Assembly: GCA_017387685.1 (NCBI GenBank)
Contig: JAFOEU010000044.1
Location: 1 to 63,853, forward strand
Source of the DNA: Clostridia bacterium
GTDB taxonomy: Bacteria; Bacillota; Clostridia; Oscillospirales; CAG-272
Direction of reading: 5' to 3'
DNA: 63,853 nucleotides
The position numbers and the translations under genes were made by a program. The stretch's first letter is position 1, and every line of letters starts with the position of its first letter. Under the pieces are notes generated by a model. It searched no databases. It saw only the letters and a program-made list of their open reading frames with translations, and was not told the origin of the DNA. Below, one piece after another: positions 26,471 through 63,853 of the stretch.

Positions 26471-26477
26471 GTGTGTT

Positions 26478-26630
26478 GAAGGAGCAAAAATCTCCCGCAA
26501 GGGGAGATTTTACTCCTTCCGGAATGTCGCCGGGACGGCGCCATTCCGAAGCACATGAGAGTGTTTCGCCCTCTGCGGAGGGCGACTTAAGGCTCTGCCT
26601 TAAGAATCCGCGAACTTTTGAAAAAGTTCG
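26478..26630. repeat. Cluster of unrelated palindromes in gene-free stretch
   Basis: In the 302-base gap 26431-26732 I see no gene. Successive hairpins occupy it: GAAGGAG...CTCCTTC enclosing AAATCTCCC/GGGAGATTT (26478-26519), CGCCCTC/GAGGGCG (26567-26584), CTTAAGGC/GCCTTAAG (26586-26604) and CGAACTTT/AAAGTTCG (26611-26630). The stems differ in sequence, so these are not copies of one repeat. Confidence 0.55.
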
Positions 26631-26663
26631 ATCAAAACTTTCAGCTTTTTTTAATTTAAATTG

Positions 26664-26732
26664 AAAACTCCGCCCGAGAGTCGGGCGGAGTTTTTACCTT
26701 TAACTAGCAACTAGTAACTAGTAACTAGTAAC
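26664..26732 (-). repeat. Stop-proximal 7-bp repeat plus hairpin module, copy 1
   Basis: Read on the minus strand from the stop codon of the gene at 26733: four copies of the heptamer GTTACTA (last one GTTGCTA), then AAAGGT, then a 14-bp hairpin (AAAACTCCGCCCGA with its complement). The hairpin with its T/A-run also works as a terminator. Confidence 0.8.
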
Positions 26733-27473
26733 TTATTCCAGCGTAATACTGTCGCAATTGAGAAAATCATGCGCAGAAATGAGCGAATTCGTAGGAATGA
26801 TCTTTTCCGCTCCGCATTTCTTGCAGTAGACGCGCATTCCCTCGGAGGTCAGCTCTGCCTCGTAGTCACCGTCGTAGGGCGCGGCGAGGTTGAAGCTGTT
26901 ATCGTCCTCCTTCGGCTCGCTGCCTTCGGGGTGGCACTTGCAGTAGATCTTGCCCTCGGCGTCGAGGTCGTGGATCACGAAGGTTACGATATCCATTATC
27001 TGCGGGTCGGGAAGCGCGGCTTCCTCCGCATCAAGGTCGCGGAAGCTTTCGATTCCGTTTTCTTCAAGCATATCGAGAAGCTCAAGCTCGTTTCTCGCGA
27101 GCTCCGCCTTGACGTGGTTTGCCTCGCCCATAAAGCAGATGTTGATGCCCGAATAGGGGCAGGGAAGCATAAAGACGTCGCGGCCGTAGAATAGACTTGT
27201 GTTTACGTTATATACGTGCGGCTTGCCGCAGAAGATGCAGGGAACGCTGATGCGTACCGTGCCGTCCGAGGCGAGAGTTATATCGAGCGCCGCGTTATCG
27301 CGGAATGAAAGGCTTTCGTCTCCCGCTTTCTTGACCGAAGCGCATTCGGGATTTGTGCACTTGAGTCTGACTCTGTCAGCCGACAGATTGAATACACCGA
27401 CCGCGCTCATAATACCGCTTCCGCAAGAGGGACAGCGGTAAGCCACGGTCGTGGATCTTGGTTCTAAAATCAT
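26733..27473 (-). CDS. Unknown protein with multiple zinc-ribbon-like CxxC motifs
   Basis: I do not recognise this 246-residue protein. It has four cysteine-pair motifs: CPSCG near 14, CTNPEC near 39, CIFCG near 77 and CKKCG near 221. A single CPYSG segment and KCHPEG lie in between. The arrangement suggests several small zinc-binding modules separated by beta-rich and acidic helical segments (an Asp/Glu-rich region at 120-165). No membrane segment or signal is present, so it is cytoplasmic. GGAGGA precedes the ATG. It stands alone between two 3'-end elements. Confidence 0.6.
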   Translation of the reverse strand: MILEPRSTTVAYRCPSCGSGIMSAVGVFNLSADRVRLKCTNPECASVKKAGDESLSFRDNAALDITLASDGTVRISVPCIFCGKPHVYNVNTSLFYGRDVFMLPCPYSGINICFMGEANHVKAELARNELELLDMLEENGIESFRDLDAEEAALPDPQIMDIVTFVIHDLDAEGKIYCKCHPEGSEPKEDDNSFNLAAPYDGDYEAELTSEGMRVYCKKCGAEKIIPTNSLISAHDFLNCDSITLE

Positions 27474-34835: not shown

Positions 34836-34868
34836 GCGGACGATCCGAATTTTGGATCGTCCGCGGGT
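34836..34868 (+). terminator. Terminator of LamG-phosphoesterase operon
   Basis: GCGGACGATCC pairs with GGATCGTCCGC; a mixed GGGTTTATTTTT follows. Confidence 0.75.
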
Positions 34869-34910
34869 TTATTTTTACGTTAAATTACGTTTTTTCATTA
34901 ACTACCGTCT

Positions 34911-34977
34911 GATTTTCGAGCAACGCGAGAAAATCTTCCTTCAGCTAACAACTAATAACTAATAACTAACAACTAAC
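34911..34977 (-). repeat. Stop-proximal 7-bp repeat plus hairpin module, copy 2
   Basis: Read on the minus strand: GTTAGTT-type heptamers (five, 34945-34977), then GAAGGAA, then a hairpin with stem GATTTTC/GAAAATC (34911-34935). Here the heptamers enter the coding region: the exporter's last codons and TAG stop (34966-34968) are themselves part of the repeat. Confidence 0.8.
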
Positions 34978-36843
34978 ATACTTCTCCGCCTGAATATTGA
35001 ACATCTCGGCATATTTCCCCTTCATCGCCATCAGCTCGTCGTGTGAGCCGACCTCGCAGAGCTTGCCGGAGTCGAACATATAGATGCGGTCCGCCATACG
35101 GGTGGTGGAGAGGCGGTGGGAGATGAAGATAACCGTTTTGCCCTCGGCGTGTCGGAGGATCGATTGGTTGAGCTCATACTCGGCAACGGGATCGAGTGCG
35201 CTTGAGGGCTCGTCCATTATCCACAGCTCGTAGGGGCGGGCGAATACGCGGGCGATGGCAACCTTCTGGCTCTCTCCTCCCGAAAGATTGGTGCCCTTCT
35301 TGTCAAATTCGCGGGTCAGCATCGTCTGCGTGCCGAGAGATAGTGATTCAAGCTTTTCGGTGAATCCCGATGCTTCGAGCGCGTTTTTCACCGTTTCGCC
35401 GTCCTTTTCCTCATCGTAAGCGCCCGACATTACGTTCTCGGCAACGGTCGAGGCAAAGATCTTGTAGTCCTGAAATACGCATCCGATCTTCGCACGGTAT
35501 GCGGAAATATCGTAATCCTTCGCGCTTCTGCCGTTATAAAGCACCTCGCCCGAGGTGGGATCGTAAAGGCGCATCAGAAGCTTGATGAGAGTTGTTTTGC
35601 CCGCGCCGTTGTAGCCGACGATTGCGATCTTCTCGCCCTTTTCGATCTTCAGATCGATCCCCTTTAGTGCATCCGCGCTGCCGCTGTTTTCATTTTTCGG
35701 CTTCTTGTGGTCGGATTTATGCCACTCGTATTTCGGCTTGTCGGAAAAATCGTATGTGAAGCTGACGTTTCGGAGCTCAAGCGACTCAAATTCGGGCACG
35801 TCCGCCTCACCGCTCACCACTTTAGGCTTGTAATCGAGGAATCCGTAGTATTTTTCAAGGAAGAGCGAGTGCTCGGGGAATTTGGCTACGCGCTCGACGA
35901 AGTCGGTGATGTTCCACTCAACTCGCCAGATGAGTCCCACGCTTGCCGCAAAGACACCGACGAGCATCGCGCCGTCGAGCATCCGCAGAAGCATATAAAA
36001 GATGATGCCGAGGCGTACAGCCTCCATAAATACGTTGTAGAAGATGCCGTAAATGAAGAAATAGCGGATGCCGTACTTTTTCTCGACCTTTATCTTGTCC
36101 TCGCAGTTGGCGTCAGCCTCGCGGAGGAGGAGATCGTCAACGCGCCCCGTGCGCAGCTCCTTGGCGTAGTCGGGGAGATGGTAAACGCGGTTGATGTAAT
36201 CGCGCTTGCGGTTCAGGGGCTTTTTCTCCTTTTCGTGCGCAAATCCCGTCTTGTTGCCGAAATAGTTGACGACACAGCCGACGATTCCCATTCCGCAGAC
36301 GATGTATATGACTATCATATCGATATCAGCCGCGATCAGGGTGCCGAGGATCGTGCCGAGTGCGATGATGCGTCCGGCGAGCGTGTTGAGGTCGGCGATG
36401 ATCTTCAGCGAACGCGACGATGCCTCGTCCATCGCCCATACGAAATCGTTATAGAATTCGGGATCATCGTAGCAAGCGACGTCGATCTCGCTCGTTTTGT
36501 TGAAAAGCTCCTCGTGAATGCGGTGATCGAGCTTGTGGTGGAGATTCGGCTTTATCATTCTGTGGTAGATGCGTTCGACGGCGAAGTAGAAGAGATACCA
36601 CAGCGCCATCAGCCCGATTATTCCGACGATGTAGGAAAGCGGATCGCCGCGGTCGAGGGAGTTGAAGAGGTAGAGCGTGAAAACACCGTAAACGGCGTTG
36701 TTGACCCCGAGGAAGATGCCCTCGATGATGAAGCTGAGGATAACAAGCTCGGGCGTGTACCTGCATACCTTGCCGAAAAGAACGAGGTTGTTGCGAAGAA
36801 TGCGCCCAATCGATTGGCGTTTTTCTTTTTGCTTTTTACTCAT
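34966..36843 (-). CDS. ABC exporter half-transporter (second gene of pair)
   Basis: Start at 36843, with GGGAGGTGAG upstream; overlaps the first transporter gene by 8 bases. The 625-residue protein has a six-helix exporter domain (about 1-330). The nucleotide-binding domain has Walker A GYNGAGKTTLIKLL, Q-loop VFQDYKIF, canonical signature LSGGESQKVAIAR and Walker B LWIMDEPSSALD. The last residues (VSC) are encoded by an intergenic-type heptamer repeat, so the C-terminus may have been recently altered. It should pair with the gene upstream as a heterodimer that expels drugs, peptides or lipids. Confidence 0.9.
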   Translation of the reverse strand: MSKKQKEKRQSIGRILRNNLVLFGKVCRYTPELVILSFIIEGIFLGVNNAVYGVFTLYLFNSLDRGDPLSYIVGIIGLMALWYLFYFAVERIYHRMIKPNLHHKLDHRIHEELFNKTSEIDVACYDDPEFYNDFVWAMDEASSRSLKIIADLNTLAGRIIALGTILGTLIAADIDMIVIYIVCGMGIVGCVVNYFGNKTGFAHEKEKKPLNRKRDYINRVYHLPDYAKELRTGRVDDLLLREADANCEDKIKVEKKYGIRYFFIYGIFYNVFMEAVRLGIIFYMLLRMLDGAMLVGVFAASVGLIWRVEWNITDFVERVAKFPEHSLFLEKYYGFLDYKPKVVSGEADVPEFESLELRNVSFTYDFSDKPKYEWHKSDHKKPKNENSGSADALKGIDLKIEKGEKIAIVGYNGAGKTTLIKLLMRLYDPTSGEVLYNGRSAKDYDISAYRAKIGCVFQDYKIFASTVAENVMSGAYDEEKDGETVKNALEASGFTEKLESLSLGTQTMLTREFDKKGTNLSGGESQKVAIARVFARPYELWIMDEPSSALDPVAEYELNQSILRHAEGKTVIFISHRLSTTRMADRIYMFDSGKLCEVGSHDELMAMKGKYAEMFNIQAEKYVSC

Positions 36844-43732: not shown

Positions 43733-44621
43733 AGAGGGCGTTGAGTACGATTGCATATTTTTTAAGGTAAAATTCAATAATTTCCGCGACGTCAGCTATT
43801 CGACGGCAAACGAAGTTCTCGACCGTGAGGAATGGGACGAGTGCGAGTGCGTGCTCTGTCTGCCCGATAGCTACACCGACGATGGCGAAGAAACACCCTT
43901 TATTCTCTCGGTTCACGGTGCGGGAGCCCGCGTTTGTGAGGCGGAGGACAAGACGGGCGGTATTGCGTACTGCCGCGAGTGCATCAAGCAGGGATATGCA
44001 GTGCTCGATGTTTGCGGTTCACAGCCCCACGGACTTACTATGGGTTGCCCCGAGCATATTTTCGCGCTCCACAAGGCGTATCTCTACGCGATAAAGCATT
44101 ATAATCTTTCAAAGCGTGTGCTCGTTGCGGGCGCTTCGATGGGCGGTCATACCGCTATGAACTTCGCACATACCTTCCCCGGTATAGTTACGGCACTCGG
44201 ACTTATCTATCCCCGCCTCAATATGGACGGAGTCGAGATCGACGGTCACTATTGCATCGGCACTTGGGATAAAACGAAAAAGAGCGAGACCACGGGTTAC
44301 AGCACCCACGACCGCATCGTTCAGATCTACCGTTTCCCCGAGGACGAGTGGTTCGCGCCGAATACTATCGGATTTAACCCCTACCTTACCCGTTCATACA
44401 TAGGCGCGGACGGCAAGCGCGTAGTCATTCCGCCCTGCCCGATCAAGGTATGGCAGGGTACAGCCGACACAACGGTCGATCCCGTTATGGTCACAGAATT
44501 CGTAGAATCGGTTCGCCGCTCGGGCAGCTACATTGAGTTCCATCTTATGGACGGCGTCGGACATAAGATCAATGACGTTATGAGAACCGAGATCGCGATG
44601 TGGTTTAATAGATTTATATAA
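43698..44621 (+). CDS. Alpha/beta hydrolase (esterase-type)
   Basis: Start at 43698, placed by GAGGAG at 43685-43690; an ATG at 43692 is too close to it. The 307-residue protein has a Ser hydrolase triad: the nucleophile in GASMGGHTAM near 149, Asp in QGTADTTVDP near 258 and His in DGVGHKIND near 290. An early strand-loop FILSVHGAGARV shapes the oxyanion site. No signal peptide, so the enzyme is cytoplasmic; it may cleave an acylated sugar or peptide ester. It overlaps the preceding membrane protein gene. Confidence 0.8.
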   Translation: MEIRKKIQSKLEEGVEYDCIFFKVKFNNFRDVSYSTANEVLDREEWDECECVLCLPDSYTDDGEETPFILSVHGAGARVCEAEDKTGGIAYCRECIKQGYAVLDVCGSQPHGLTMGCPEHIFALHKAYLYAIKHYNLSKRVLVAGASMGGHTAMNFAHTFPGIVTALGLIYPRLNMDGVEIDGHYCIGTWDKTKKSETTGYSTHDRIVQIYRFPEDEWFAPNTIGFNPYLTRSYIGADGKRVVIPPCPIKVWQGTADTTVDPVMVTEFVESVRRSGSYIEFHLMDGVGHKINDVMRTEIAMWFNRFI

Positions 44622-44626
44622 TAGAA

Positions 44627-44686
44627 GTTACTGGTTGCTAGTTACTAGTTATTAGTTGAAGGTAAATTTTCGCGGTGCGAAAATTT
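44627..44686 (+). repeat. Stop-proximal 7-bp repeat plus hairpin module, copy 3
   Basis: Five bases after the esterase stop: heptamers GTTACTG, GTTGCTA, GTTACTA, GTTATTA, then GAAGGT, then hairpin AAATTTTCGC/GCGAAAATTT (44664-44686). Confidence 0.85.
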
Positions 44687-44699
44687 CATATTAAAATAA

Positions 44700-44737
44700 A
44701 GTGCAGCAAGGATCATATTCCTTGCTGCACTTTGTTT
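44700..44737 (+). terminator. Terminator of U32-esterase operon
   Basis: AGTGCAGCAAGGA pairs with TCCTTGCTGCACT, then TTGTTTT. It lies between repeat modules 3 and 4, which point towards each other. Confidence 0.85.
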
Positions 44738-44804
44738 TATTCAGGCATTAAATTATCCCGCATAATTAAGAGTCATTAACGCCAAATTTAATTATTATGG
44801 AGTT

Positions 44805-44868
44805 GATTTTCTCGCTTGGCGAGAAAATCTTCCTTCAACTAGCGCCTAACAACTAGTAACTAGCAACT
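44805..44868 (-). repeat. Stop-proximal 7-bp repeat plus hairpin module, copy 4
   Basis: On the minus strand directly after the epimerase stop: heptamers GTTGCTA, GTTACTA, GTTGTTA, GGCGCTA, then GAAGGAA, then an 11-bp hairpin (GATTTTCTCGC/GCGAGAAAATC). Confidence 0.85.
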
Positions 44869-45764
44869 CAAATATTAGCTTCAACCATTTCCGCAAGCTT
44901 CGTGAGCGTCGCGTGGAGTCTTACCATATAGTCGGCGTAGGAAAGCGATGCGTAAGAGCGCATAATGCCGCCCGCGATGGTGAAAAATTCAGGCTGTTTT
45001 GCGATCGGGAGATTATTTACCATTGCGGTGATCTCCTCATCCGTCATATCCGCAAGCTTCTTTTCCGAGCAGTAGGAGGTCTCGGCGCAGATGCGGGTGC
45101 GGGCGTACTCGGTCTTTGCAAGGTCGCGGGCATCGCGCTCCCAATCGTTATTGCCGTCGAAGGGCATAAGGTGCAGATCGTGAGCGGCGTCGTTATCGTT
45201 GATGTGAAGCACGGCAAGTCTGTCTCCGAACGAGCCGAGAATGTCGAAATCGTGCGCGAATGCGTTGCGGTGGCCGCTGTCGTAGGTGAAGCGAACTGCG
45301 GGATGATCCTTGAGCTTATCCATAGTTGCGTAGAGGTGCTCGATGAACACCGAATTTTCGAGGCAGAGCAAGAAGCCGTTCTCAAGCGCACAGTCTGCCA
45401 TCTTGGTCAGACGCGCGATTCCGCATTCGCTGACCTCTCCGGGATCCTTGTGACCCCAGGTGATGTGCGCAACGCCCTTCTTGATGCCTGCAGCAGCAGC
45501 CATTCGGATCTCCTTGCAATATCTCTCGCAGACCTTGTCGCCAAGCTCGTCCTCAAACCAGATCTCGGTGGTCTTGCCGCCGGTGAGATGGATGTTGTCG
45601 ATCTCGAGACCGTATTTTTTGCAAAGCTCGACCTGATATTCAAGAGTGCCGTCCGAAAGCGCACCCATTCCGATGGCAACGAAATCAAATCCCGCCGCCT
45701 TGATCGCGATGATCTTTTCCTCAATGTTTCCGCCGCCGTGGACGTATGTACCGATCTGAATCAT
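44868..45764 (-). CDS. Sugar phosphate isomerase/epimerase (xylose isomerase-like TIM barrel)
   Basis: Start at 45764, sharing bases with the previous stop (TAATG) and served by GGAGGT. The 298-residue protein is an AP-endonuclease-2-fold TIM barrel: DFVAIGMGALSDG near 31, LCLENSVFIEH near 134, RFTYDSGHRNAF near 159 and VLHINDND near 184. The Glu, Asp and His ligands of a divalent metal fit this family, used for ketose epimerisation and inositol breakdown. It is the last gene of a four-gene operon with a glycosidase, so it may process the released sugar. Confidence 0.8.
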   Translation of the reverse strand: MIQIGTYVHGGGNIEEKIIAIKAAGFDFVAIGMGALSDGTLEYQVELCKKYGLEIDNIHLTGGKTTEIWFEDELGDKVCERYCKEIRMAAAAGIKKGVAHITWGHKDPGEVSECGIARLTKMADCALENGFLLCLENSVFIEHLYATMDKLKDHPAVRFTYDSGHRNAFAHDFDILGSFGDRLAVLHINDNDAAHDLHLMPFDGNNDWERDARDLAKTEYARTRICAETSYCSEKKLADMTDEEITAMVNNLPIAKQPEFFTIAGGIMRSYASLSYADYMVRLHATLTKLAEMVEANI

Positions 45765-50240: not shown

Positions 50241-50888
50241 ATGGCAGATATATTCGATCTTTTTGCAAAGATCTCAAAGGAAAATACGGTAAAGGTAAAG
50301 GCACCCGTCGAGTGGCTTATCGTCGGTCTCGGCAACCCCGGGCGCGATTACGTCAACACCCGTCACAACGCGGGCTTTATGGCTATCGACTCGCTTGCGA
50401 AGAAAAAGGGCATCACCGTCGACCGCTCGCGCTTTAAGGCTTTGACCGCAGAGTGCGAGATCGCGGGCAAGGGCACGCTTCTGATGCTTCCGCAGACCTA
50501 TATGAACCTCTCGGGCGAGGCTGTCCGCGAGGCGGCGCAGTTCTATAAGATCGCGCCCGATCATATCCTTGTCCTGTCCGACGATATCAATCTTGACGTC
50601 GGCAGAATGCGCCTTCGCGAGAACGGCTCGGACGGCGGTCAGAAGGGACTCCGCAGTATCATCACGCTGATGGGCTTCGATAACTTCCCCCGACTTCGCA
50701 TCGGAGTAGGCAAGAAGCCGCACCCCGACATGGAGCTTGCCGATTGGGTGCTCTCGCGCTTCAACGAGAACGAAATGAAGCAGCTCTCAAAGCTCTTTGA
50801 CATAGCGGCGAACTGCGTGGAGCTCTACGTTGCAGGCAAGCGCGACGAGGCGGTAAGAGTGTGCAACGCGAAGCATGAGCTTTTTTAA
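50241..50888 (+). CDS. pth: Peptidyl-tRNA hydrolase
   Basis: Start at 50241 with GGAAGGAG upstream. After about 24 extra N-terminal residues the conserved body begins: VGLGNPGRDYVNTRHNAGF with catalytic His and Asn near residues 40-45, PQTYMNLSG and LSDDINLDVG, then GQKGLRSI. It frees tRNAs from prematurely released peptides. The N-terminal extension is longer than usual. The stop codon is the first base set of a heptamer repeat module; mfd follows, and in many Firmicutes these two genes are neighbours. Confidence 0.95.
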   Translation: MADIFDLFAKISKENTVKVKAPVEWLIVGLGNPGRDYVNTRHNAGFMAIDSLAKKKGITVDRSRFKALTAECEIAGKGTLLMLPQTYMNLSGEAVREAAQFYKIAPDHILVLSDDINLDVGRMRLRENGSDGGQKGLRSIITLMGFDNFPRLRIGVGKKPHPDMELADWVLSRFNENEMKQLSKLFDIAANCVELYVAGKRDEAVRVCNAKHELF

Positions 50889-50951
50889 GTTATTAGTTAT
50901 TAGTTGTTAGTTGTTAGTTAAAGGTGGATTTCCTCGCGTTGCTCGGAAATC
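50889..50951 (+). repeat. Stop-proximal 7-bp repeat plus hairpin module, copy 5
   Basis: Immediately after the pth stop: heptamers GTTATTA, GTTATTA, GTTGTTA, GTTGTTA, then AAAGGTG, then stem GATTTCC/GGAAATC (50927-50951). Confidence 0.85.
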
Positions 50952-51001
50952 TTCCAATTTAATTAAAAACTGTGTTCGCACAAGCAATTTTAATTAAGAT
51001 T

Positions 51002-51129
51002 GAAATTTGCCCTCTGCAAATTTCCACCTTAACTTCGCCCGCAGGGCGAAACATCACTTGCGCGAAGCGCAATCATCACTTTGGCGCAAGCCAAATCATC
51101 ACTTTTCTCCGCAGGAGAAAAACATCACT
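51002..51129 (-). repeat. Array of unlike hairpins with ATCATCACT-type linkers, array A
   Basis: From 51002: hairpin GAAATTTGC/GCAAATTTC, a CACCTTAA box, then TTCGCCC/GGGCGAA, TGCGC/GCGCA, TTGGC/GCCAA and TTTCTCC/GGAGAAA. Each hairpin is followed by ACATCACT or ATCATCACT. Stems differ, linkers are conserved. The array fills most of the 262-base gap between pth and mfd; no gene is visible there. Confidence 0.85.
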
Positions 51130-51150
51130 CAAATTGATTGGTAGTTTAAT

Positions 51151-55954: not shown

Positions 55955-56047
55955 TTTGCCTGTGGCAAATCAAGTGATGATCTCGCTTTGCGAGAGCGAT
56001 GATCTTGCTTCGCAAGAGTGATAATCTCGCTTCGCGAGAGTGATGGG
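55953..56047 (+). repeat. Hairpin array with AGTGATGAT-type linkers, array B
   Basis: Hairpins GATTTGCC/GGCAAATC, CTCGC/GCGAG, CTTGC/GCAAG and CTCGC/GCGAG start at 55953, 55982, 56004 and 56026. They are separated by AAGTGATGAT, AGCGATGAT, AGTGATAAT and AGTGATGGG. The last three units repeat exactly every 22 bases. The linker is the complement of array A's linker, so array B is in opposite orientation. Confidence 0.87.
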
Positions 56048-56085
56048 TATCGTTCAGCAAAAGTTTGAAATAGCGAGGTGTCAGA

Positions 56086-56457
56086 ATGTCTTCGGCATTA
56101 TTAAAGGATAAATCCAAGGCGTTTGCAAACAGAATTGTAACTTGCTGTCGAGTTTTGCGTGAAAGAGGAGCTGAAGCTCCTTTGATCAATCAGCTTTTGC
56201 GTTCCGGTACTTCAGTAGGCGCAAATATCGCAGAAGCACAGTTTGCTCAAGGAGATAAGGATTTCATATCCAAAATGGAAATAGCCTTAAAAGAGATCAA
56301 TGAAACGGAATATTGGCTTGAATTGCTGTTCAATGCTAAATGTATTAATAACAGAGAATTTTTATCTATGCGCAACGATTGTATAGTTATACGCAAATTA
56401 CTTATTTCTTCTGTTATAACGGTAAAGAAAAGGATAAATTCTCTGGAAAATAAATAA
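56086..56457 (+). CDS. Four-helix-bundle protein (S23/IVS family)
   Basis: A 123-residue all-helical protein matching the four-helix-bundle family first found in 23S rRNA intervening sequences: LLRSGTSVGANIAEAQFAQ near 42-60 and KMEIALKEINETEYWLELL near 69-87. The fold is shared with Avd of diversity-generating retroelements and forms pentameric or similar rings that bind nucleic acid. Codon use is AT-rich compared with neighbours. GCGAGGTG precedes the ATG. Uniquely, hairpin arrays in opposite orientations lie directly on both sides, so it looks like a mobile or repeat-linked cassette. Confidence 0.87.
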   Translation: MSSALLKDKSKAFANRIVTCCRVLRERGAEAPLINQLLRSGTSVGANIAEAQFAQGDKDFISKMEIALKEINETEYWLELLFNAKCINNREFLSMRNDCIVIRKLLISSVITVKKRINSLENK

Positions 56458-56458
56458 C

Positions 56459-56523
56459 TTTCGCAATTGCGAAATTATCACTTTGCCCGAAGGGCAAATT
56501 ATCACTTCCGCACATCGGGCGGA
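56459..56523 (-). repeat. Hairpin array with TTATCACT linkers, array C
   Basis: TTTCGCA/TGCGAAA, TTTGCCC/GGGCAAA and TCCGC/GCGGA hairpins, with TTATCACT between them, start 2 bases after the four-helix gene's stop. Orientation is the same as array A and opposite to array B. The rest of the 329-base gap 56458-56786 holds the TPP riboswitch and its terminator. Confidence 0.8.
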
Positions 56524-56554
56524 ACAGAACCAACTTCACCAAGAAAACTGAATA

Positions 56555-56640
56555 TCCGATACGGGGGTGCCGTGCGGCTGAGACGGTCTTTAGACCGAAC
56601 CCTTTGAACCTGATACGGGTAATACCGGCGAAGGAAGTTT
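56555..56640 (+). promoter_or_regulatory. TPP riboswitch (THI element)
   Basis: The conserved THI-box features are present in order: GGGGTGC near 56563, GGCTGAGA near 56577 and CCCTTTGAACCTGAT near 56600. GGGTAATACCGGCGAAGGAA follows near 56617. It should bind thiamine pyrophosphate and lies directly upstream of a thiamine transporter gene. Confidence 0.97.
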
Positions 56641-56666
56641 AAAATCTACCGAATTTTTTCGGGGGT

Positions 56667-61516: not shown

Positions 61517-61519
61517 TCC

Positions 61520-61664
61520 CAATTGTAAAACTGCGTTTTACAATTGACGTTCGCGCGCTTATCGCCGCTTGACAAAATCGAGGATTTTGTCAGCTCCCCT
61601 CGGCGCGCGGGCTCGCATAGCTCGCCTGAGCGGTGTTTTTTCGGCGGCAAAGCCGCCGAAAAAA
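61520..61664. repeat. Three hairpins between lipoprotein and mgtC genes
   Basis: CAATTGTAAAAC/GTTTTACAATTG (61520-61546), TGACAAAATC/GATTTTGTCA (61570-61592) and TTTTTTCGGCGGC/GCCGCCGAAAAAA (61636-61664). The last one is flanked by T and A runs and can serve as a two-way terminator. No gene is seen in 61517-61739. Confidence 0.65.
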
Positions 61665-61739
61665 CTGATTTTATAAAATAACTCCGATTTCATTCGGTAA
61701 TTTTGATTGTTATATTGATTAAAGGAGAGCATTTTATTT

Positions 61740-63139: not shown

Positions 63140-63201
63140 AAATGCAAAATGCAAAATGCAAAATGAAGGTAAATTTCCGAGCCCACGGGGCTCGGAAATT
63201 T
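63140..63201 (+). repeat. Stop-proximal 7-bp repeat plus hairpin module, copy 6 (AAATGCA type)
   Basis: One base after the mgtC2 stop: AAATGCA three times plus AAATG, then AAGGT, then a 14-bp perfect hairpin (AAATTTCCGAGCCC and its complement, 63171-63201). Architecture matches the GTTACTA modules but the heptamer is different. Confidence 0.85.
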
Positions 63202-63233
63202 TTGATTGAACAACGATAAAGCTTTTGAAGATT

Positions 63234-63397
63234 CTTAAGAAACTTTTCTCGAAAAGTTTCTTAAGCAGAGCTCGAGACGGAGTCTCGAACTAATGCGAGA
63301 CCTTCAGGTCTCGCCACCGCGCTTCAAAAATACGAAGCTTGCTTCGGATTTTTGGACTTAATAACCACTTCCCGATTGTAGGGAAGTGGTTGTTAAG
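63234..63397. repeat. Cluster of five unlike hairpins at the right end
   Basis: CTTAAGAAACTTTTC/GAAAAGTTTCTTAAG (63234-63265), TCGAGAC/GTCTCGA (63272-63288) and GCGAGACC/GGTCTCGC (63295-63314). Then AAAAATACGAAG/CTTCGGATTTTT (63326-63353) and a 17-bp stem at 63357-63397. No gene is visible in the gene-free stretch 63139-63853 apart from repeats. Confidence 0.6.
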
Positions 63398-63744: not shown

Positions 63745-63795
63745 TGGAGCGAGGCTTTTCATTTCTGCCTCGATCTATTTTTGATATTAATTGAT

Positions 63796-63853
63796 GAAAT
63801 TTGCCTCGGCAAATTTCTACCTTTACGTTTCGCCAAGCGAAACATATCGTGCC
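63796..63853 (-). repeat. Start of another hairpin array (cut by window end)
   Basis: Hairpin GAAATTTGCC/GGCAAATTTC, then a TACCTTTA box, then GTTTCGC/GCGAAAC and ACATAT. The order and the GAAATTTGC stem match array A at 51002, so this is probably the beginning of a fourth array. Confidence 0.7.

Follow-up and report, generated by a model that had tools for sequence, protein, structure and literature searches.

Each of the six heptamer modules in the 63,853-nucleotide stretch of clostridial DNA analysed here (the window) probably forms one end of a short mobile element that is a gene-less relative of elements carrying a gene for S23p. A complete element would comprise a heptamer array of about 32 bp, AAGG and a palindrome (in this genus), a body, and then the inverse of all of these, and the gene-bearing form would encode S23p, a small four-helix-bundle protein of 23S rRNA intervening sequences (IVSs). 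The window's heptamer-ended copies are free of S23p, at least one has a central terminator-like hairpin, and they may be likened to MITEs of the S23p element.

A first-pass annotation of the window had described six modules of heptamer array, AAGG and palindrome, and all six were recovered at the places it gave, with AAGG behind each of the six arrays. They are listed here with further features of the window.

26659-26733, minus strand: module 1, with array 26702-26733 and AAGG plus palindrome 26659-26700; it adjoins a dispersed repeat at about 26477-26642.
34906-34978, minus strand: module 2, with array 34945-34978 and AAGG plus palindrome 34906-34941.
44627-44691, plus strand: module 3, left member of the facing pair that it forms with module 4, with array 44627-44657 and AAGG plus palindrome from 44659.
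44692-44799, no strand assigned: body between modules 3 and 4, with a terminator-like hairpin at 44698-44733 (scored on the minus strand).
44800-44868, minus strand: module 4, right end of the module-3 pair, with AAGG plus palindrome 44800-44837 and a degenerate array 44836-44868 (69% matches).
50888-50957, plus strand: module 5, with array 50888-50919 and AAGG plus palindrome 50921-50957.
50997-51133, minus strand: possible opposite end of the module-5 element, a weak candidate (covariance hit of 23 bits, E 0.16), with a palindrome at 51002-51024 and tandemly repeated units, each about 22 nt long (GTGAT plus mini-hairpin; tandem array 51052-51105).
56086-56457, plus strand: S23p gene (PF05635, E 1.4e-23).
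63140-63206, plus strand: module 6, with AAATGCA array 63140-63165 and AAGG plus palindrome 63166-63206.
63791-63823, minus strand: AAGG plus palindrome end without a heptamer array (covariance hit of 30.1 bits, E 0.0047).

The annotation had placed every module within 6 bases of a stop codon and in the orientation of that gene. For the six in the window this is accurate: judged from ORFs, each array either overlaps the stop codon of a gene in the same orientation or begins no more than 6 nt past it, the gene end and array start being 44621/44627 and 63138/63140 where the two do not overlap, and array 34945-34978 overlapping the final 13 nt of its own gene. As a rule for the genome it is too strict, as the larger sample below shows. 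Palindromes beginning with GATTT(T/C)C or AAATTT(T/C)C number five of the six, rather than the four first counted, the exception being 26664-26697. The sole Rfam match in the window is a TPP riboswitch (56553-56653), so the modules do not lie inside an rRNA gene, and no S23p ORF was found between or beside the heptamer-ended modules.

Seven is the favored repeat length in this genome (2.58 Mb in 116 contigs, 85% complete). At a score of at least 14, the window has four arrays of period 7, one of period 14 and none at any other period from 4 to 15, and five block shuffles of the window gave no arrays at any period. In a 463-kb sample of the genome, consisting of the window and 20 further stretches, 36 period-7 arrays scored at least 15, whereas each of the remaining periods between 5 and 12 had 0-2. 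The units themselves vary (TAGTTRY, AGAGTGC, AGAGGGC, AAATGCA and others). An idea that TAG-containing heptamers act as stops in three frames was dropped because other units, such as AAATGCA, contain no stop codon. With overlaps counted, the TAGTT-type heptamer pattern AGTTRNTAGTTRNTAGTT matches the 2.58-Mb genome 172 times, and the reversed control has no match; across 59 genomes it matches in six, namely this one (172), G004 (35), G014 (15, versus 10 in its reversed control), G009 (5), G040 (5) and G012 (2). An exact, longer pattern was found at 11 loci in two Clostridia MAGs (yak colon and goat cecum) within a collection of named genomes that possibly does not include the window's genome.

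The test for enrichment at gene 3' ends that the first-pass annotation had proposed, with random placement as the contrary outcome, came out clearly for enrichment in the 463-kb sample. Gene models here are from in-house ORF scoring, and the 50 arrays comprise 49 found automatically and the array at 44836 added by hand, with orientation assigned from the sequence motif. Twenty-eight of the 50 begin no more than 10 nt from the stop codon of a gene in the same orientation, versus 2.3% expected, and 38 lie on the 3' side of the neighboring gene versus 46% expected, the other 12 being on the 5' side. By intergenic region, 26 arrays are in tandem, 22 in convergent and one in divergent regions (33.9 kb, 7.4 kb and 11.6 kb, respectively), and one is unassigned. 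Placement at stop codons is hence a strong tendency and not a law.

In this genome 44 of 49 arrays, and in relatives 14 of 34, are followed by a palindrome with an NNGG foot, counts obtained under a stricter hairpin rule that carries no null; the first, loose hairpin finder passes 57% of random positions. The case at L037:2262, one of the 44, appears to be spurious and was excluded from alignment A1, into which the palindrome at 44800-44837 was put by hand. In A1 (58 ends from four genomes), pairing in the 7-bp stem reaches 99.5%, six of the seven pairs show both-sided changes (59 cells), and G-U pairs occupy 1 of 406 cells. Shuffled alignments matched the observed cells and score in 0 of 500 cases and the number of pairs in 2 of 500, and further pair types in A1 did not differ from shuffles (245/500).

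A covariance search of the genome, also proposed in the annotation, gave 72 locations with E ≤ 0.011 among 122 listed hits (better strand retained), none of which lies inside a called gene. Their stems contain no G-T pair among 504 and two mismatched pairs among 504, compared with 159 G-T pairs among 1472 inner pairs of 171 nearby terminator-like hairpins in the same intergenic regions; this contrast is partly inflated, since paired stems were used to train the model, whereas G-T is permitted by the terminator finder. So few G-T pairs would not be usual in a stem that is conserved for folding as RNA and fit a palindrome kept at the DNA level or by copying. A period-7 array lies in the 48 nt before 48 of the 72 locations (class A, most of which are training members of the model) versus 213 of 6450 random intergenic 48-mers, arrays included. 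Among the other 24 locations (class B), 15 have TGATNNT motifs upstream, versus 2 of the 48 in class A, and these motifs belong to tandem units that are about 22 nt long and contain mini-hairpins. Such units, GTGAT plus a mini-hairpin, occur in the window at 55973-56053 and 51030-51133 and constitute a second kind of array before AAGG-palindromes elsewhere in the genome. By eye they lie on both sides of the window's S23p gene (55973-56053 and 56459-56530), where the automatic period-7 and 17-26-nt array tests did not call them. Outside the window's genus, AAGG-palindromes were not seen as a rule. A sister family has AGTGGAC-type heptamers followed by AAAGATGCG in place of the AAGG-palindrome, likewise in inverted pairs (L089, L095, L099, L112, L122 and L123, from G004 and G009), and one of its pairs encloses an S23p gene.

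Arrays are found in inverted, facing pairs, which is why we regard a module as one end of an element. Sixteen such pairs account for 32 of the 50 arrays in the 463-kb sample, and arrays L043:15265 and L043:15530 are letter-identical in inverse; 18 arrays have no facing partner by the pairing rule used. For the pair formed by modules 3 and 4, the predicted RNA fold of 44619-44872 sets array on array around both palindromes and the central hairpin (z -11.4), and an S23p copy in L047 folds likewise, array on array (z -9.7). The pair at 44627-44868 thus has terminal inverted repeats that pair into a stem, as in rRNA IVSs, and it is short and gene-less with inverted ends common to a gene-bearing element of the same genome, as is characteristic of MITEs.

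These properties bear on the function that the first-pass annotation had read from the constant position, namely that of a 3'-UTR module acting in 3'-end formation, in ribosome release or in mRNA stability, which would be under selection on host genes. The 3'-end position is indeed strong, and behind the gene at 26733 (module 1) a module-like stretch was seen by eye in all four species, including G004, G009 and G012. The paired ends, the arrays on the 5' side and the absence of G-T pairs point the other way, and none of the six palindromes resembles an intrinsic terminator (G+C-rich stem and T run) in gene orientation, the palindrome at 63171-63201 being terminator-like on the opposite strand. 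Modules are also absent behind orthologous genes in several relatives, including some relatives for the genes of modules 3 and 5, and the TAGTT pattern is missing in 9 of 12 other same-genus genomes. We therefore consider a host-selected 3'-UTR module improbable, and the 3'-end signal is probably something other than the module itself. Separate terminator-like hairpins lie near modules (for example, 34836-34864 and 44698-44733), and the central terminator-like hairpin of an inserted element may make the 3' ends of adjoining genes, while the paired arrays could, by analogy with rRNA IVSs, be an RNase III substrate.

Comparison of 84 intergenic regions with three same-genus genomes (G004, G009 and G012; 98 comparisons) revealed presence and absence of arrays at orthologous sites, together with turnover of their units. 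Region L037:17001-17316 has 314 bp and two arrays here and is empty in G009 (49 bp) and G012 (52 bp), where a terminator-like hairpin is found, while the G004 slot is 359 bp long with a different heptamer unit. At L037:10593-10947, two arrays are present in all four species and units or bodies differ. The G012 region orthologous to the module-5 site is just 35 bp long. At L034:17129-17420, the two recognizable ends look swapped by eye between G000 (the window's genome) and G009, which suggests separate insertions. Overall, seven of ten array slots have an array in a relative versus 4 of 38 other slots (Fisher p 0.0004), and in 14 of 15 comparisons the same-slot arrays of different species have no 7-mer in common. 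On these sequence comparisons, the pattern appears to be one of preferred slots with rapid unit turnover, which either re-insertion or conversion may bring about. The nearest relatives are too diverged for exact borders, and the comparison yielded neither an empty site exact to the base nor a target duplication.

Slots that are common to species while bodies and units differ would also be expected if the arrays were resident sites at gene ends, between or into which S23p and other small elements insert, making them targets and not ends, and the 18 arrays without a facing partner suit that explanation too. However, paired arrays have a common unit, orthologous slots change together on both sides, and inverted arrays border S23p inserts within 23S rRNA and RNase P RNA, where arrays would be unexpected without an insert. 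We thus regard arrays as targets as unlikely and interpret them as element ends in what follows.

The gene-bearing form is present in the same genome. The ORF between the arrays of L047:5923-6568 encodes S23p (PF05635 23S_rRNA_IVP, E 1.2e-41), and two S23p copies here have heptamer and palindrome ends (L047:5949-6494 and L040:18250-18772). The palindromes of both belong to alignment A1, on which the covariance model was trained, so their hits are no independent test. PF05635 genes also lie between heptamers in the G004 slot of L047 and in the G004 and G012 slots of L034:11795-12049. Of the six PF05635 genes in the genome, only two have inverted heptamers by the automatic test. We know of no catalytic activity of S23p. 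Its solved relatives are 2gsc and 2rld, the former described as a homopentamer of four-helix bundles (PMC4990558).

Beyond this genome, PF05635 was found in 13 of 23 relatives and, at E 1e-12, in 56 of 398 genomes of the phylum. We examined 32 of 36 places and 72 of 89 further places, two of them twice, giving 106 rows (100 after removal of near-duplicates, 97 of these with enough flank). Of the 106 S23p positions, 46 are flanked on either side, at no more than 220 bp, by inverted period-7 arrays, versus 1 of 641 other called genes (four genomes). After de-duplication, an inverted period-7 pair is found at 41 of 97 S23p genes versus 12 of 980 random 310-bp windows from the same loci, whereas other periods from 4 to 12 give inverted pairs at 0-3 of 97. 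The association is not confined to the genus (35 of 74 S23p genes outside it and 6 of 23 inside). At least one heptamer array (median 32 nt) lies at 54 of 97 S23p genes versus 103 of 980 control windows. Against the element explanation, no inverted pair of either period 7 or period 17-26 was found at 54 of the 97, the 17-26-nt test having added two places. The interval between the array and the S23p start codon contains an AGG-rich stretch in several other genomes, and for this reason AAGG may, as a guess, descend from a Shine-Dalgarno site.

Structured RNA genes are among the sites of S23p. An Rfam run on 80 of 99 S23p loci placed nine in LSU rRNA, three inside RNase P RNA and two beside tmRNA. 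The seven distinct LSU rRNA places all have an array, and four have an inverted pair, as do both distinct RNase P RNA places, both tmRNA places and 33 of 86 others. In L197, the inverted heptamers border an insert in the 23S rRNA. The S23p genes inside RNase P RNA genes (L194, L196 and L199) and directly beside tmRNA (L208 and L219) are from Bacillota. On plasmids, 30 records match S23p; among the 20 fetched, which were not de-duplicated, nine have an inverted heptamer pair and 15 an array. Without a matched control, the other periods gave no pairs (5, 6 and 9) or 3 of 20 (period 8). The nine plasmids with a pair are eight cyanobacterial (four Nostoc, Anabaena, Pseudanabaena, Geminocystis and Calothrix) and one of Bacteroidota (Riemerella).

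This association also bears on two further explanations. REP/BIME elements consist of a short palindrome with a conserved foot, occur in inverted pairs and are moved by RAYT (Y1) transposases. The AAGG at the palindrome foot, the inverted pairs and the intergenic spread are reminiscent of such a family. Unlike REP/BIME, the heptamer arrays here sit outside the palindrome, heptamers are what recurs around S23p in other genomes, and no RAYT was found, with 0 matches to the Y1 transposase PF01797 in the 85%-complete genome; a REP/BIME-like origin is therefore very unlikely. Plain microsatellites born by slippage and surviving best at gene ends would fit the over-representation of heptamer repeats reported for many bacterial genomes (PMC4692102). 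Slippage cannot explain the palindrome after 44 of 49 arrays, the inverted pairing or the S23p association, and it is already contradicted by the last, leaving it scarcely credible.

The closest described relatives of the S23p elements are rRNA IVSs, which RNase III removes from the RNA with no subsequent ligation. The 23S rRNA IVS of Coxiella burnetii is reported to contain an S23p ORF, three GACAGAT heptamers before the start codon and a 28-bp terminal stem, and to be cut by RNase III (PMC4990558). With such S23p-bearing IVSs, the elements here have in common the S23p gene, terminal inverted repeats, tandem heptamers and a length of about 430-560 bp, and the same paper describes the origin of IVSs and the role of S23p as unclear (PMC4990558). 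Unlike rRNA IVSs, the modules of the window have no S23p, are found behind protein genes in numerous copies and, within this genus, include an added AAGG-palindrome. Cyanobacterial STRR heptamers, reportedly described by Vioque in 1997, are said to lie inside RNase P RNA as well. They are similar in being tandem heptamers in intergenic regions and within rnpB, whereas the inserts seen here in RNase P RNA genes of Bacillota are S23p elements that have inverted heptamers; to our knowledge, STRR heptamers have no link to S23p or to a mobile element. Small dispersed repeats (SDR) of Nostoc, attributed to Elhai in 2008, are said to be embedded in heptamers and would likewise be small hairpin elements together with heptamers; SDR are not known to be linked to S23p.

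Intergenic heptamers in Xanthomonas, Nostoc and Beggiatoaceae are also found near start or stop codons, as here, but have been interpreted as quadruplex-forming or regulatory (PMC4692102, PMC4679880). In Xanthomonas and Nostoc, arrays of about four units are favored, another similarity to those here, and heptamer arrays are reported to have no general association with mobile elements (PMC4692102); for the TAACTGA repeats of Beggiatoaceae, no evident mechanism of spread is reported (PMC4679880). Heptamer arrays have no agreed cause in either source (PMC4692102, PMC4679880). PF05635 is treated as resembling Avd of diversity-generating retroelements (PMC10053308), and the fold is related, one S23p here having a sub-threshold bAvd hit. 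Unlike Avd, it is accompanied by no reverse transcriptase, none having been found with RVT_1 in the 85%-complete genome. Among the papers that searches of open PMC listed, only PMC4990558 was found to join S23p and heptamers, and subscription literature, which was outside our scope, could hold an earlier report.

Because of the place of the S23p gene in the element, we infer that S23p recognizes the array ends and mobilizes full and gene-less copies in trans, and the insertion chemistry is inferred along with it. Insertions would sit where an extra RNA stem is tolerated: in 3' UTRs behind stop codons, next to structured RNA genes, or within them, as in rRNA helices and RNase P RNA. Some genomes would have many gene-less copies. 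At the RNA level, the paired arrays would form an RNase III-type stem such as is cut in rRNA IVSs, and processing of this kind would extend outside rRNA. A broader proposal, which we advance tentatively and at somewhat short of an even chance, is that S23p is the mobility protein of an unrecognized, phylum-crossing class of elements with tandem-heptamer ends renewed per move (both ends of an element share a unit, and orthologous slots differ), of which rRNA IVSs, cyanobacterial STRRs and many intergenic heptamers would be copies or remnants and the window's modules gene-less offspring. The link between S23p and heptamers across the phylum, and on cyanobacterial plasmids and one Bacteroidota plasmid, ties the IVS and heptamer puzzles together in a testable manner and may explain the source of many seven-base repeats scattered in bacteria. 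Heptamer modules at gene ends would accordingly be best taken as insertion traces first and as regulatory signals only if demonstrated.

Several minor observations concern the surroundings of S23p genes and modules. A tRNA gene is present in 9 of 20 S23p loci without an inverted pair (L126, L127, L128, L130, L138, L139, L144, L145 and L149), and tRNA genes are perhaps another preferred S23p site. Rfam Gut-1 RNA lies within a few hundred bases of S23p in L139 and L145 (G038 and G008), the latter having two copies on opposite strands. On three cyanobacterial plasmids (L225, L227 and L238), S23p lies between CRISPR genes (cas6/cas4 twice and cas10/cmr3 once), the first two with inverted heptamers. 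Two dispersed repeat families, at 26477-26642 and 63218-63387, adjoin modules 1 and 6, have many members among the matches listed in G004, G009 and G012, and might be the bodies of longer elements that share these ends. A different dispersed family, about 155 bp long, has a member at 61519-61674 and dozens among the matches listed in the same three genomes; the intergenic region is 223 bp here versus 18-21 bp in G004, G009 and G012, a good empty site for this family.
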